Shown: positions 35,350-39,162 of the stretch, one piece after another
Layout: each line of letters opens with the position of its first letter
Numbering within the stretch: the first letter of the stretch is position 1
NCBI GenBank assembly: GCA_003054665.1
Contig: QAYY01000011.1
Coordinates: 532,654-596,653, forward strand
Source: Opitutaceae bacterium EW11
GTDB taxonomy: Bacteria > Verrucomicrobiota > Verrucomicrobiia > Opitutales > Opitutaceae
DNA length: 64,000 nt
Direction of reading: 5' to 3'
Position numbers and translations under genes: made by a program
The notes under the pieces: model-generated
Databases searched by the model: none
The model's input: the letters and a program-made list of their open reading frames with translations, nothing else
What the model was told of the DNA's origin: nothing

Positions 35350-37059
35350 ATGAGCTCAGAACCTGCGGCAACCAAGCCCCTCAGCGCCAACGAAGGCCTA
35401 AAAGCGGCCTCCCGTTTCCTTCGCGGCAATATTGCGAACGAGGTGGCGGATGCCTCCACCGGCGCGATCAGCGAGGAGAGTTCGCAGCTGACGAAGTTTC
35501 ATGGGCTTTATCTGCAGGACGACCGCGATCTGCGGAAAGAGCGCGTGAAGCTGAAACAGGAGAAGGCGTACGGCTTTATGTTGCGCGTGCGCCTCCCCGG
35601 CGGGCGATGCACTCCGGAGCAGTATCTGATGCTCGACCGGTTGGCCGGCGAACGCGCGAACGGCTCGCTGCGGCTGACGACGCGCCAGACGTTCCAGTTT
35701 CACGGTGTGCTGAAGGGCAACTTGAAGCCCTTGATCCGAGGCATGCATCAGGTCTTGCTCGATTCCATTGCCGCCTGTGGCGACGTGAATCGCAACGTCA
35801 TGGCTCCGCCGAATCCGGAGCGCTCCCCGGTTCACCAACAGGTTTACGAGCTCGCCAAAAACTGGAGCGAGTTCGCTCTTCCGAAGACCCGCGCCTATCA
35901 CGAAATCTGGATCGACGATGAACTCGTCGCCGGCGGGGAGCAGAAGGAAGACGAGGAGCCGATGTACGGCCCGACGTATCTCCCGCGCAAATTCAAGACC
36001 GGTTTTGCCATTCCTCCGTCGAACGACATCGACGTGTTTTCTCAGGACCTGGGCTTTATTGCGATCGTCGAAGGCGAGAAACTCCTGGGCTTCAATGTGG
36101 CCGTTGGCGGCGGCATGGGCATGAGCCACGGCAACGCCGAGACGTTCCCGCGCCTGGCCGACGTGATCGGTTTCATCACTCCGGACAAGGTCAACACGAT
36201 CGGCCACGCCGTGCTCACGACGCAGCGCGACTTCGGCGACCGCAGCAACCGCCGGCATGCGCGCCTCAAGTACACCATCCAGGATCGCGGGATCGAGTGG
36301 TTCAAAGCCGAGGTGGAGCGCCGCGCGGGTTTCAAGCTGGACGCGGCCCGCCCGTACAATTTCACCACGATTGCCGACGATTACGGCTGGCATCGCGGTG
36401 TGGACGGCAGCTGGTACTGCATGCTGTTTATCCTCTCGGGTCGTATCCGCGACACGGAGGACTGGAAGATGCGCACCGCGCTTCGTGAGATCGCGCAGGT
36501 CCATCGCGGCGACTTCCGTCTCACGCCGTCTCAGAACTTGAGTATTTCAGGGGTGAGCGAGGAGCAGAAGCCCGTGATCGAGGGGATTCTTCGCCAGTAC
36601 AACCTGCACGAGACGCATCGGCAGAGCGGGATCCGTTTGAATGCGCTGTCCTGCGTCGCCCTGCCGACCTGCGGTCTGGCGCTGGCCGAAAGCGAGCGGG
36701 CGTTGCCCGGACTGCTGGACAAGTTTGAAAACGTGCTCGATGAAGCCGGATTGCGCGACGACGCGATCAGCCTGCGCGTCACGGGCTGCCCGAACGGCTG
36801 CGCGCGGCCGTTCCTCGCCGAGATCGGCTTTGTTGGGAAGGCGCCGAACAAATACGCTCTGTATTTGGGGGCCAATTACAACGGGACCCGCCTCAACCGG
36901 CTTTTCGCGCCGTCCGTCACGATCGACGAAGGTGTCGCCCTGCTCACTCCGGTGATCAAGCGGTACGCTCTGGAACGGCAGGACGGCGAGCGCTTCGGCG
37001 ATTTCTGCCACCGCACCGTGCTGGCCGAACAGACTGCCGCGCCCGTCGCTACCGCCTGA
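35350..37059 (+). CDS. cysI: Assimilatory sulfite reductase hemoprotein (CysI)
   Basis: The 569-residue protein matches NADPH-type sulfite reductase beta subunit in length and motifs. Siroheme-[4Fe-4S] cluster ligands are Cys435 and Cys441 ('CVALPTCGLALAESERALPG') with Cys480 and Cys484 ('VTGCPNGCARP'). That is the C-X5-C...C-X3-C pattern at almost the E. coli positions. Substrate-binding Arg/Lys segments include 'LTTRQTFQFHG' and 'NVMAPPNPERSP'. It reduces sulfite to sulfide in sulfur assimilation. No cysJ (flavoprotein) or cysH gene is next to it, so the electron donor must be encoded elsewhere. A nitrite reductase role is unlikely given the CysI-specific spacing. Confidence 0.93.
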   Translation: MSSEPAATKPLSANEGLKAASRFLRGNIANEVADASTGAISEESSQLTKFHGLYLQDDRDLRKERVKLKQEKAYGFMLRVRLPGGRCTPEQYLMLDRLAGERANGSLRLTTRQTFQFHGVLKGNLKPLIRGMHQVLLDSIAACGDVNRNVMAPPNPERSPVHQQVYELAKNWSEFALPKTRAYHEIWIDDELVAGGEQKEDEEPMYGPTYLPRKFKTGFAIPPSNDIDVFSQDLGFIAIVEGEKLLGFNVAVGGGMGMSHGNAETFPRLADVIGFITPDKVNTIGHAVLTTQRDFGDRSNRRHARLKYTIQDRGIEWFKAEVERRAGFKLDAARPYNFTTIADDYGWHRGVDGSWYCMLFILSGRIRDTEDWKMRTALREIAQVHRGDFRLTPSQNLSISGVSEEQKPVIEGILRQYNLHETHRQSGIRLNALSCVALPTCGLALAESERALPGLLDKFENVLDEAGLRDDAISLRVTGCPNGCARPFLAEIGFVGKAPNKYALYLGANYNGTRLNRLFAPSVTIDEGVALLTPVIKRYALERQDGERFGDFCHRTVLAEQTAAPVATA

Positions 37060-37330
37060 GCCGCCGGCCGTTCACCGGCGCCTTCGCGGCTGCCTAACAG
37101 AGCGCGCCGTGACGCTGCGCTTCATCCGCGAGCGTGTTCGCCCCGGTCGCTCGGCCGTGTCCGGGGCGGCTCAGTACGGCCGCAGACCGGACGTTGGGGA
37201 TAGTCCACGATACCTCGCGAATGGCGCGGTGGGCTGGACTTATACTACGTGCGAAGGAGGTCTGACGTCCGCGAACGATTGCACAGCGATCGGCGGGTCG
37301 CGCGATCGAGTTGAATCCCTCCATGCGGGC

Positions 37331-37358
37331 ACAAAAAAGCCCCTGGAAACCAGGGGCT
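37331..37358 (-). terminator. Rho-independent terminator of tRNA-Asp
   Basis: On the minus strand AGCCCCTGG pairs with CCAGGGGCT (9 bp, loop TTT), followed by TTTTTT. It lies 4 nt past the tRNA 3' end. Confidence 0.9.
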
Positions 37359-37362
37359 AAAA

Positions 37363-37439
37363 TGGCGGGATGGACGGGACTCGAACCCGCGACCTTCTGC
37401 GTGACAGGCAGACGCTCTAACCAGCTGAGCTACCACCCC
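37363..37439 (-). tRNA. tRNA-Asp (anticodon GTC)
   Basis: The minus strand gives a 77-nt cloverleaf starting GGGGTGGTAGCTCAGCTGG and ending in an encoded CCA. The anticodon stem TCTGC/GCAGA encloses CTGTCAC, so the anticodon is GTC (Asp). The T-arm is GCGGGTTCGAGTCCCGT. Discriminator base G agrees with Asp. It has its own promoter and terminator. Confidence 0.95.
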
Positions 37440-37460
37440 GGAATCGGGAAAAGAGCGGCG

Positions 37461-37488
37461 AACGTAGAATCCGAGAAATGCAAGTCAA
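37461..37488 (-). promoter_or_regulatory. Promoter of tRNA-Asp
   Basis: On the minus strand TTGACT (-35, 37483-37488) stands 16 nt before TACGTT (-10, 37461-37466). The predicted start is about 14 nt upstream of the tRNA. The -35 is a near-perfect sigma-70 match; the -10 is weaker. Confidence 0.55.
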
Positions 37489-37522
37489 GCGTCCTTTTGG
37501 AACATTCTCTTCGGTACTCGCT

Positions 37523-37714
37523 TCACTCCGCAATTCCGTGAGATTCAACCCGCAATTGCCCTCGCAAAACCTCCACCGTGACCGTCATCGGTCTGCAGCA
37601 AATCTCACAGTCGTAATCGAGTTCCGCCGGGAGCTCCTCAGATTCCGGCGTCGGGATCTCGAACCGCTCTCCGCAAGCGGGACAAATCACGGTGATGAAC
37701 TCGGGCAGCTGCAT
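37523..37714 (-). CDS. CPXCG-type cysteine-rich small protein
   Basis: The 63-residue protein starts MQLPEFITVICPACGERFEI and continues with a second cysteine pair 'DYDCEICCRPMTVTVEVLRG', so one zinc-ribbon-like site of type CPACG...CEICC is likely. Short proteins of this 'CPXCG' family are widespread in proteobacteria and of unknown function. The longer frame to 37768 overlaps the tRNA-Arg promoter region, so the ATG at 37714 is preferred. It is divergent from tRNA-Arg. Confidence 0.8.
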   Translation of the reverse strand: MQLPEFITVICPACGERFEIPTPESEELPAELDYDCEICCRPMTVTVEVLRGQLRVESHGIAE

Positions 37715-37727
37715 GGCGCATTTCCCC

Positions 37728-37756
37728 TTGTGAACGGCGCGAGCGCAAATTAGCTG
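37728..37756 (+). promoter_or_regulatory. Possible promoter of tRNA-Arg and the repeat array
   Basis: TTGTGA (37728-37733) stands 17 nt before TAGCTG (37751-37756), placing a start about 13 nt upstream of the tRNA. Spacing and position are good, the -10 match is poor. Confidence 0.35.
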
Positions 37757-37775
37757 GGTCCGGTTCAAGATTCAA

Positions 37776-37852
37776 GCGGTGGTAGCTCAACCGGATAGAG
37801 CAACGGTTTTCTAAACCGTAGGTCGCGGGTTCGAGTCCCGCCCACCGCGCCA
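37776..37852 (+). tRNA. tRNA-Arg (anticodon TCT)
   Basis: The 77-nt gene starts GCGGTGGTAGCTCAACCGG and ends in an encoded CCA. The acceptor stem GCGGTGG pairs with CCACCGC. The anticodon stem ACGGT/ACCGT encloses TTTCTAA, so the anticodon is TCT (codons AGA/AGG). The T-arm is CGCGGGTTCGAGTCCCGCC. Its last 21 nt recur three more times downstream (see the repeat array), and no terminator follows the tRNA directly. Confidence 0.95.
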
Positions 37853-38280
37853 TCTTTTGGTCTTCGCCTGTTCCGGGGCTCGATCCCGCGACTTGCCGGA
37901 TCGCTTCGCGATCCTTCGCGGGTGTCAGGCCTCTCGCTTCGCTCGTAGACGAGTCCCGCCCACCGCGCCATCTTTTGGTCTTCCCTGTTCCGGGACTCGA
38001 CCCCGCGACTTGCCGGATCGCTTCGCGATCCTTCGCGGGTGTCAGGCCTCTCGCTTCGCTCGTAGACGAGTCCCGCCCACCGCGCCATCTTTTGGTCTTC
38101 GCCTGTTCCGGGACTCGATCCCGCGACCTGCCGGATCGCTGTGCGATCCTTCGCGGGTGTCAGACCTCTCGCTTCGCTCGTAGACGAGTCCCGCCCACCG
38201 CGCCATCTTTTGGTCTTCGCCTTTCCGGGACTCGATCCCGCGACTTGCCGGATCGCTGCGCGATCCTTCGCGGGTGTCAG
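37832..38280 (+). repeat. Tandem array of 117-118 bp units, each starting with the tRNA-Arg 3' end
   Basis: Units lie at 37832-37949, 37950-38066, 38067-38184 and 38185-38280 (the last shortened by about 21 bp). Each opens with CGAGTCCCGCCCACCGCGCCA, the final 21 nt of tRNA-Arg; in unit 1 this is the tRNA itself. A conserved TCTTTTGGTCTT segment follows, then a segment resembling an antisense tRNA T-arm (CGGGACTCGATCCCGCGAC). A long hairpin and a GCCTCTCGCTTCGCTCGTAGA tail complete the unit. Units differ at only a few positions and nothing in them varies like a CRISPR spacer. Confidence 0.92.
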
Positions 38281-38315
38281 GCGCGGCGCTGTGCGCTGGA
38301 TCGAGCGGTCGATCC
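37853..38315 (+). ncRNA. Candidate structured RNA co-transcribed with tRNA-Arg
   Basis: Every unit can form a hairpin with outer stem CCCGCGA/TCGCGGG and inner stem GGATCGC/GCGATCC (unit 1: 37885-37922). The paired bases are identical in all four units. The 3-nt loop varies (TTC, TTC, TGT, TGC) and one bulge base varies (unit 3). Past the array, 38298-38315 forms a similar hairpin GGATCGA-GCGG-TCGATCC. With no terminator after the tRNA, read-through would yield tRNA plus these hairpins, as for the rtT RNA behind E. coli tyrT. Expression is inferred, not shown. Confidence 0.45.
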
Positions 38316-38516
38316 TGCCATTTGGGTTCCTCCTCCACGGATGCTTTTTCGCGCAGGTGGGCAGCGATCCGACGGCTCGATGTCGAAATGCGTTGTTGAG
38401 GTTTCCGAGCGGGACAGATCGCTGAGGCTTGTTCTCGCACGGAGCTTGATCGATGTGAGTTGGCCTCGTGGGCGTGCACGGTGCCGCGCGTTGGGCTGCG
38501 GAGCTTGGGTTGAGAA

Positions 38517-38966
38517 ATGAAGGAAGCTGACTTCGTTCGTCGGCGTTTCCCCATGGTCTCATCCCCAAGCGCTGCCTCCACTCCGTTTCTTCTTCTCTTC
38601 CGCAATACCGGACCTGACGTCCATCAGCACCTCACGGCCGAACAGCGGCTCGAGCTGACAAAACAGTGGAACGACTGGTACGACGGGCTGGCCGCGCGCG
38701 GCCAGGCGATCCAGGGTTCGCCGCTCGGGTTCGAGGGCCGCGTTCTCTCAGGTCCCCAAGGCCGCAAGGTGATCGATGGCCCCTACGCGGAGGCCAAAGA
38801 GGTGGTCGGGGGATTCGTGATGGTTCGAGCCGCGGACCTCGACGAGGCCACGGAACTCGCAAAGGGCTGCCCCGGTTTGCCGCTCGGGCTCACTGTCGAA
38901 GTGAGGCCGCTCGTACCGGTGAGCCCCGTGCTCGAAGGCGTGCAGGCACACGCGCCTCAAGCCTGA
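38517..38966 (+). CDS. YCII-related protein
   Basis: The 149-residue protein has the YCII core 'FLLLFRNTGPDVHQHLTAEQ', 'KQWNDWYDGLAARGQAIQG', 'RKVIDGPYAEAKEVVGGFVM' and 'ATELAKGCPGLP', a dimeric ferredoxin-like alpha/beta domain seen in small cytosolic enzymes and in proteins next to ECF sigma factors. The specific reaction is unknown. An ATG at 38553 (MVSSPSAAS) is an alternative start that would remove 12 poorly conserved residues. It lies just downstream of the tRNA-repeat region and upstream of the M48 protease gene. Confidence 0.8.
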   Translation: MKEADFVRRRFPMVSSPSAASTPFLLLFRNTGPDVHQHLTAEQRLELTKQWNDWYDGLAARGQAIQGSPLGFEGRVLSGPQGRKVIDGPYAEAKEVVGGFVMVRAADLDEATELAKGCPGLPLGLTVEVRPLVPVSPVLEGVQAHAPQA

Positions 38967-39162
38967 CGCGGCGATCCGGATACGTTTTCCCCGCCGGGAA
39001 CGGACTAGAGAATCACAAGTTCTCGGCGAGTGGAACCTCGAGCTCCGCTCGGGATGCGGGGGCGCCGGGCGGATCTCTATTCTGTCGTGTCGCGCTTTCC
39101 GAGCCTTTGCGGGGCTTGAATCAGCTGGCTGCTGGAGCCAGCATCTAGGTTCCAGCTTTCTT

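Follow-up and report, generated by a model that had tools for sequence, protein, structure and literature searches.

The array behind tRNA-Arg(TCT)

The window, by which we mean the whole 64-kb stretch of DNA analysed, contains a divergent pair of tRNA genes, one of which, tRNA-Arg(TCT), is followed by a tandem array that repeats the 3' end of the tRNA itself. The features of the locus, with the evidence for each in brackets, are listed below.

37221..37311, minus strand: decayed unit behind tRNA-Asp (84% identical to the Arg array, E 4e-20)
37358-37338, minus strand: intrinsic terminator of tRNA-Asp (predicted)
37363..37439, minus strand: tRNA-Asp(GTC), divergent neighbour of tRNA-Arg (ARAGORN)
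37776..37852, plus strand: tRNA-Arg(TCT) gene with encoded CCA (ARAGORN; Rfam tRNA 73.6 bits)
37853..37970, plus strand: unit 1, 118 bp, consisting of trailer, inverted T-arm, hairpin, T-arm with enlarged loop and copy of the tRNA 3' end (TRF, unit boundaries)
37874..37892, plus strand: left arm of unit 1, an inverted tRNA-Arg T-arm, CGGGGCTCGATCCCGCGAC (sequence; predicted folds have it paired either to the right arm or to the T-arm of the tRNA)
37898..37914, plus strand: hairpin of unit 1, GGATCGC-TTC-GCGATCC (fold)
37916..37949, plus strand: copy of the T-arm 5' strand in unit 1, TCGCGGGT, then the loop module GTCAGGC..GTAGA (sequence, relatives' units)
37950..37970, plus strand: right arm of unit 1, an exact 21-nt copy of the tRNA-Arg 3' end (exact match)
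37971..38087, plus strand: unit 2, 117 bp (TRF, unit boundaries)
37991..38009, plus strand: left arm of unit 2, inverted T-arm (sequence)
38067..38087, plus strand: exact 21-nt copy of the tRNA-Arg 3' end in unit 2 (exact match)
38088..38205, plus strand: unit 3, 118 bp (TRF, unit boundaries)
38109..38127, plus strand: left arm of unit 3, inverted T-arm (sequence)
38185..38205, plus strand: exact 21-nt copy of the tRNA-Arg 3' end in unit 3 (exact match)
38206..38282, plus strand: unit 4, truncated before its own 3'-end copy, with about 77 nt that are unit-like (TRF, unit boundaries)
38226..38244, plus strand: left arm of unit 4, inverted T-arm (sequence)

Tandem Repeats Finder (TRF) placed the 117-bp array at 37832-38282, with 3.8 copies, 96% matches and a score of 839, while the runner-up repeat in the 64-kb window reached a score of only 73. 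Exact copies of the last 21 nt of tRNA-Arg (CGAGTCCCGCCCACCGCGCCA) stand at 37950, 38067 and 38185; the window has no others, and in all three copies identity to the tRNA ends at 21 nt. The initial annotation had described almost four units of 117-118 bp, each with the tRNA 3' end; the tandem arrangement and the exact copies stand, but the count is three complete units plus a truncated one, that is, three additional 3' ends. Every unit also carries an inverted copy of the T-arm (CGGGACTCGATCCCGCGAC), whose sequence CGGGACTCG is complementary to CGAGTCCCG in the T-arm of the host tRNA. Each unit further has the hairpin GGATCGC..GCGATCC, and its 5' strand of the T-arm (TCGCGGGT) is set apart from the 3' half by the enlarged loop GTCAGGC..GTAGA. 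The inverted T-arms and the decayed unit behind tRNA-Asp are additions to the initial annotation.

On the other side of the locus, the decayed unit downstream of tRNA-Asp has a right arm that matches the 3' end of tRNA-Arg at 18 of 20 positions, versus 15 of 20 for tRNA-Asp. A search of positions 37000-39000 with Rfam models, at E values up to 1, yielded no RtT match, and the two tRNAs were the only matches over threshold. A minus-strand ORF of 267 aa (window positions 37765-38568) spans the array and is probably a spurious protein annotation; we dismissed coding on this strand as a likely by-product of a 117-bp period that is divisible by three. Arrays of this kind will confuse ORF callers.

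A family of units behind tRNA and tmRNA genes

The array is not unique to tRNA-Arg. When the 46 tRNA genes and the tmRNA of the same genome (G000) were surveyed, comparable units were found behind tmRNA, two tRNA-Glu genes, a tRNA-Met, a tRNA-Ser and tRNA-His, in addition to the decayed unit behind tRNA-Asp. Behind the tmRNA stands a 159-bp array, 3.3 copies long, in which the tmRNA's own 3' end is repeated; two further units lie behind tRNA-Glu(TTC), and one each behind tRNA-Glu(CTC) and tRNA-His. Units that end in the 3' halves of tRNA-Met and tRNA-Ser are located at contig ends, adjoining an IS-like repeat.

We built a covariance model, R1, from 15 units behind Ser, Met, Glu and Tyr tRNAs of this genome and its relatives, with no E. 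coli sequence in the training set. The 15 aligned units form one multibranch structure, composed of P1 (the closing helix, left arm with copied tRNA 3' half), P2 (GAACCC/GGGTTC) and the hairpins P3-P6, and 20 of its 32 pairs are changed on both sides. Pairing in the class is conserved to a high degree: the covariation score is 0.469, versus 0.143 for shuffles and at most 0.081 for slid structures, in an alignment that was fitted to the model's structure. R1 matched the unit behind tRNA-Glu(TTC) of G000 at 96.5 bits, and matches occurred in 86 of 200 genomes and 31 of 49 genera of the family Opitutaceae. Among the loci examined, 71 of 92 unique matches lie downstream of a tRNA gene on the same strand, first units typically start 23-69 nt past the CCA, and right ends are mostly identical to the tRNA 3' end at 19 of 20 bases. 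Host tRNAs include Tyr, Met, Ser, Glu, Pro, Lys, Gly, Leu, Asn and His.

A second model, R2, rebuilt from 129 matches, was applied to a phylum-wide sample of 289 genomes and found units in 40, other orders and classes included, mostly behind tRNAs. The class occurs behind tmRNA and no fewer than 10 kinds of tRNA; many genera of the family have it, and its distribution over the phylum is thinner. A scan of species genomes with an exact core pattern gave 14 loci, and those that were named all belong to Verrucomicrobia/Opitutales. As to plasmids and phages as possible carriers, the matches listed were all of tRNA size.

The units share one plan: an inverted T-arm fitted to their own tRNA, hairpins, and then the 3' half of the tRNA again. 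The fit of the left arm was quantified at five variable positions in 44 units, those of the window being left out. Left arms matched their own host tRNA at 3.70 positions on average, versus 1.95 +/- 0.15 after permutation (0 of 5000 permutations).

Although other units of G000 match R1, the units of the window do not. Their connection to the family runs through intermediates. Three R1 matches (L134, L182 and L185) contain the loop module of the window, GGTGTCAGGCC..GTAGACGA, and behind a tRNA-Ser (L181) one unit of each form stands side by side. The module GTCAGGC..GTAGA is also present in relatives' units behind tRNA-Asp, -Ser and -Pro; behind tRNA-Asp of G183 it has 90% identity over 49 nt. 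Because neither R1 nor Rfam matched the window array, and its link to the others is through intermediates and plan, we call it a variant form with a different loop module and not a formal member of RtT.

At orthologous tRNAs the units are sporadic. Only 2 of 29 relatives have anything similar behind tRNA-Arg, and 29 tRNA-Glu loci gave two weak matches. The initial annotation had proposed that lack of conservation in related genomes, together with lack of a transcript past the tRNA, would leave the array a chance local duplication. Conservation at the same locus behind tRNA-Arg is indeed mostly absent, but this does not extend to the element. That duplication alone could produce such an arrangement is suggested by the tail of E. 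coli rnpB (K-12, L237 247-639), a stable RNA gene trailed by 3.5 tandem copies of 113 bp that open with its 3' end; these repeats differ from the units in having a terminator each, no inverted arm was seen in them, and their sequence is unrelated. A chance event with no wider meaning is nevertheless contradicted by the recurrence of one plan, with covarying arms, behind many RNA genes and in many genera, and we consider it hardly credible.

Comparison with rtT and other repeats

The initial annotation had likened the array to the repeats of the E. coli tyrT operon, and this likeness was borne out for the class. R1 recognised all three rtT repeats of K-12 on the correct strand, at 31.7-34.2 bits (E about 1.5e-5 to 5e-5 in 96 kb). 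Conversely, the Rfam RtT model (RF00391) aligned over its full length to an Opitutaceae unit behind tRNA-Tyr (L122) at 34.1 bits, the best score among relatives and below the gathering cut-off of 45. In both RtT (tyrTV rtT, rttR) and the Opitutaceae units, tandem units lie directly behind a tRNA and each ends in the tRNA 3' half with CCA; shared sequence features are the motif GGATGAGAA in the left arm, GGTTCGA, hairpins of the GCGAAGC type and pairing arms. The likeness therefore holds in plan and partly in sequence.

The units of the window agree with RtT in being tandem and in carrying a tRNA 3' segment, here as three exact 21-nt copies; they do not reach the gathering score of 45 bits, the RtT model giving no match at all, and they differ in lacking most of the P3-P6 hairpin string and in their loop module. 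Opitutaceae units also differ from E. coli RtT in their occurrence behind many tRNA types and tmRNA. RF00391 already includes the tyr and lys clusters of E. coli. Within this species the copy number varies: the rtT unit occurs at 1-9 places per genome (median 2) and, at megablast sensitivity, had no match in 746 of 5426 genomes. So far, the E. coli repeats have passed for a peculiarity of a small number of enterobacterial tRNA operons. The class, known until now mainly from rtT of tyrT, is far wider than one locus.

Another Rfam family touches on the same arrangement. The model of the Xanthomonas sRNA sX4 (RF02223) comprises a tRNA-Ser-like gene and a trailer that extends to the start of a unit (..GGGGGGUGAGA). 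In Opitutaceae, a tRNA-Ser and the first part of the unit behind it (L117 1803-1976) scored 48 bits with this model, below its gathering score of 70 and with most of the score contributed by the tRNA. It looks as though sX4 itself models a tRNA-Ser joined to the start of an RtT-like unit.

REP/BIME sequences, which are associated with a Y1 (RAYT) transposase, resemble the units in being non-coding, palindromic, extragenic and present in many copies, and rtT-like elements are linked to BIMEs in PMC2965389. The units described here differ in that they are bound to tRNA 3' ends and both of their arms match the local tRNA. We rejected dependence on REP/RAYT functions: the genome G047 contains eight units and no Y1_Tnp domain at E<=1e-6.

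Upkeep and origin of the units

One role put forward in the initial annotation, beside a possible decoy for tRNA 3' processing and a possible record of integrase-site duplications, was that of a co-transcribed regulatory RNA. On this reading, tRNA-processing enzymes would cut units of the rtT kind from the pre-tRNA, and these would act in trans, for example when amino acids are scarce, or in cis, where they would compete with folding of the tRNA. Several lines of evidence are consistent with it. The rtT RNA of E. coli is a reported product, annotated as RttR. RtT RNAs have been seen on northern blots of Actinobacillus pleuropneumoniae. According to PMC4986893, tyrT and further tRNA operons release RtT; the same paper cites Bosl and Kersten 1991 for a modulatory effect on the stringent response. 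At our locus, no terminator was found between tRNA-Arg and the array, and in the fold predicted for the precursor the left arm of unit 1 could make about 20 bp with the T-arm of the tRNA. The predicted fold of tRNA plus unit 1 (195 nt) has an energy of -96.7 kcal/mol, with this pairing present and the cloverleaf lost, versus predicted values of -33.8 and -44.0 kcal/mol for tRNA and unit folded apart. An effect of unit 1 on its tRNA in cis is only a hypothesis, as these folds ignore co-transcriptional folding and modification.

Selection on an RNA transcribed from the tRNA strand should leave G-U pairs in excess of A-C mismatches. The tRNA acceptor and T-stems at the same loci have a ratio of 95:2. 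Within the units, G-U and A-C were balanced in P3-P6 (24:20) and in P1 (34:37), counts that come from an alignment fitted to the model's structure, treat related sequences as independent and are indicative only; P2, a small helix, was the only one with an excess of G-U (31:5). Moreover, 14 of 52 first units lie past an intrinsic-terminator-like hairpin between tRNA and unit. Together, the mismatch ratios and terminators favour upkeep at the DNA level and weaken a purely RNA role. The absence of an array at the orthologous tRNA-Arg of most relatives also speaks against a functional RNA, as does an E. coli sRNA screen (PMC4606813), in which RttR stands at 97 +/- 9% with no other change marked. 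Despite P2 and the northern-blot signals, we regard a functional regulatory RNA as unlikely, if by no means far-fetched.

The attachment sites of integrases that act at the T-loop span a block from the T-loop to the CCA. The 21-nt block copied in the window has the same limits, and the arrays could in principle be a tandem record of site-specific integration, with the 3' half serving as att identity block and each unit being a mini-element that a tyrosine recombinase had put in at the T-loop. The occurrence of single or multiple units on several tRNAs is in keeping with this, as is a T-loop fusion in G047 (L256, G047:C1:1254400-1256000, minus strand), where a tRNA-Leu is joined at GGGTTCGA directly to an RtT-like core. 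In three complete genomes, matches without an adjacent tRNA were often preceded by a tRNA 3' fragment, and such orphan units would likewise fit integration. However, the last copy is usually followed by the unit's trailer once more, a sign of tandem duplication and not of insertion of a foreign circle, and with a length of 117-170 bp the units would make very small circles. We give integration little credence.

Further details were noted at these loci. An intact tRNA-Leu(CAG) lies further downstream of the L256 fusion. RtT-like units without an intact upstream tRNA were seen at L240, L243, L245, L250 and L253, and at L240, L245, L250 and L253 a tRNA 3' fragment with its T-arm precedes the unit.

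The reading that we favour, with modest confidence, is that an RtT-type element has been amplified locally to give the array behind tRNA-Arg. Such an element would be a palindromic DNA repeat tied to tRNA genes, generated and kept up at the DNA level, with RNAs as possible by-products. A unit consists of a trailer, a left arm (the inverted T-arm), hairpins, and a loop-interrupted T-arm that runs into a copy of the host tRNA 3' half as right arm. Recombination or template switching around the palindrome of the T-arm may have generated the family and may maintain it, and tandem copies could arise by unequal recombination between the direct repeats of the 3' half. Where no terminator intervenes, as after tRNA-Arg, units may be co-transcribed and, by analogy with E. 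coli rtT, released as small RNAs ending in CCA.

Several observations sit less easily with a DNA repeat. The G-U excess in P2 and the reported rtT RNA of E. coli have been mentioned; in addition, the units of the window matched neither R1 nor Rfam RtT, so that their membership runs through intermediates and plan, and no mobilising enzyme was found, the Y1 transposase being absent from the eight-unit genome G047. Unit cores cluster significantly neither by genome, as spread would predict (p 0.12), nor by tRNA, as inheritance would (p 0.10). A broader proposal, which we advance as a doubtful possibility, is that RtT-type units are widespread mobile or self-copying DNA elements targeted to tRNA and tmRNA genes. 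Their arms would be rewritten for each new host tRNA, the right arm as a copy of its 3' half and the left arm as its inverse T-arm, through a DNA mechanism at the T-arm palindrome, with rtT RNA as a by-product.

If the units are indeed Watson-Crick palindromes without RNA-strand bias, present in many genera of Verrucomicrobiota and behind many tRNAs and tmRNA, then annotations of "RtT sRNA" may name a DNA element and not an RNA gene. The family would also provide a clear test system for repeats that carry a neighbour's sequence in both orientations. In practical terms, the arrays can mislead predictions of genomic islands that are based on repeated tRNA 3' ends.

Finally, eight contigs of G000 (L045, L055, L060, L065, L071, L073, L076 and L077) break off 77-215 bp past a tRNA gene, within a common repeat, GGATCTACACCAAAGTTTGGGGACAGCC.., of which L067 contains a diverged copy. 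We rejected the idea that these breaks are collapsed arrays; the ends are a repeated IS-like sequence starting with GGATCTACACCAAAG. A 53-aa ORF from this element had no match in Pfam. The repeat looks like the end of an insertion element that prefers the regions downstream of tRNAs, and at L045/L130 it appears to split an RtT-like unit, with the repeated flank AGCTTGCC.
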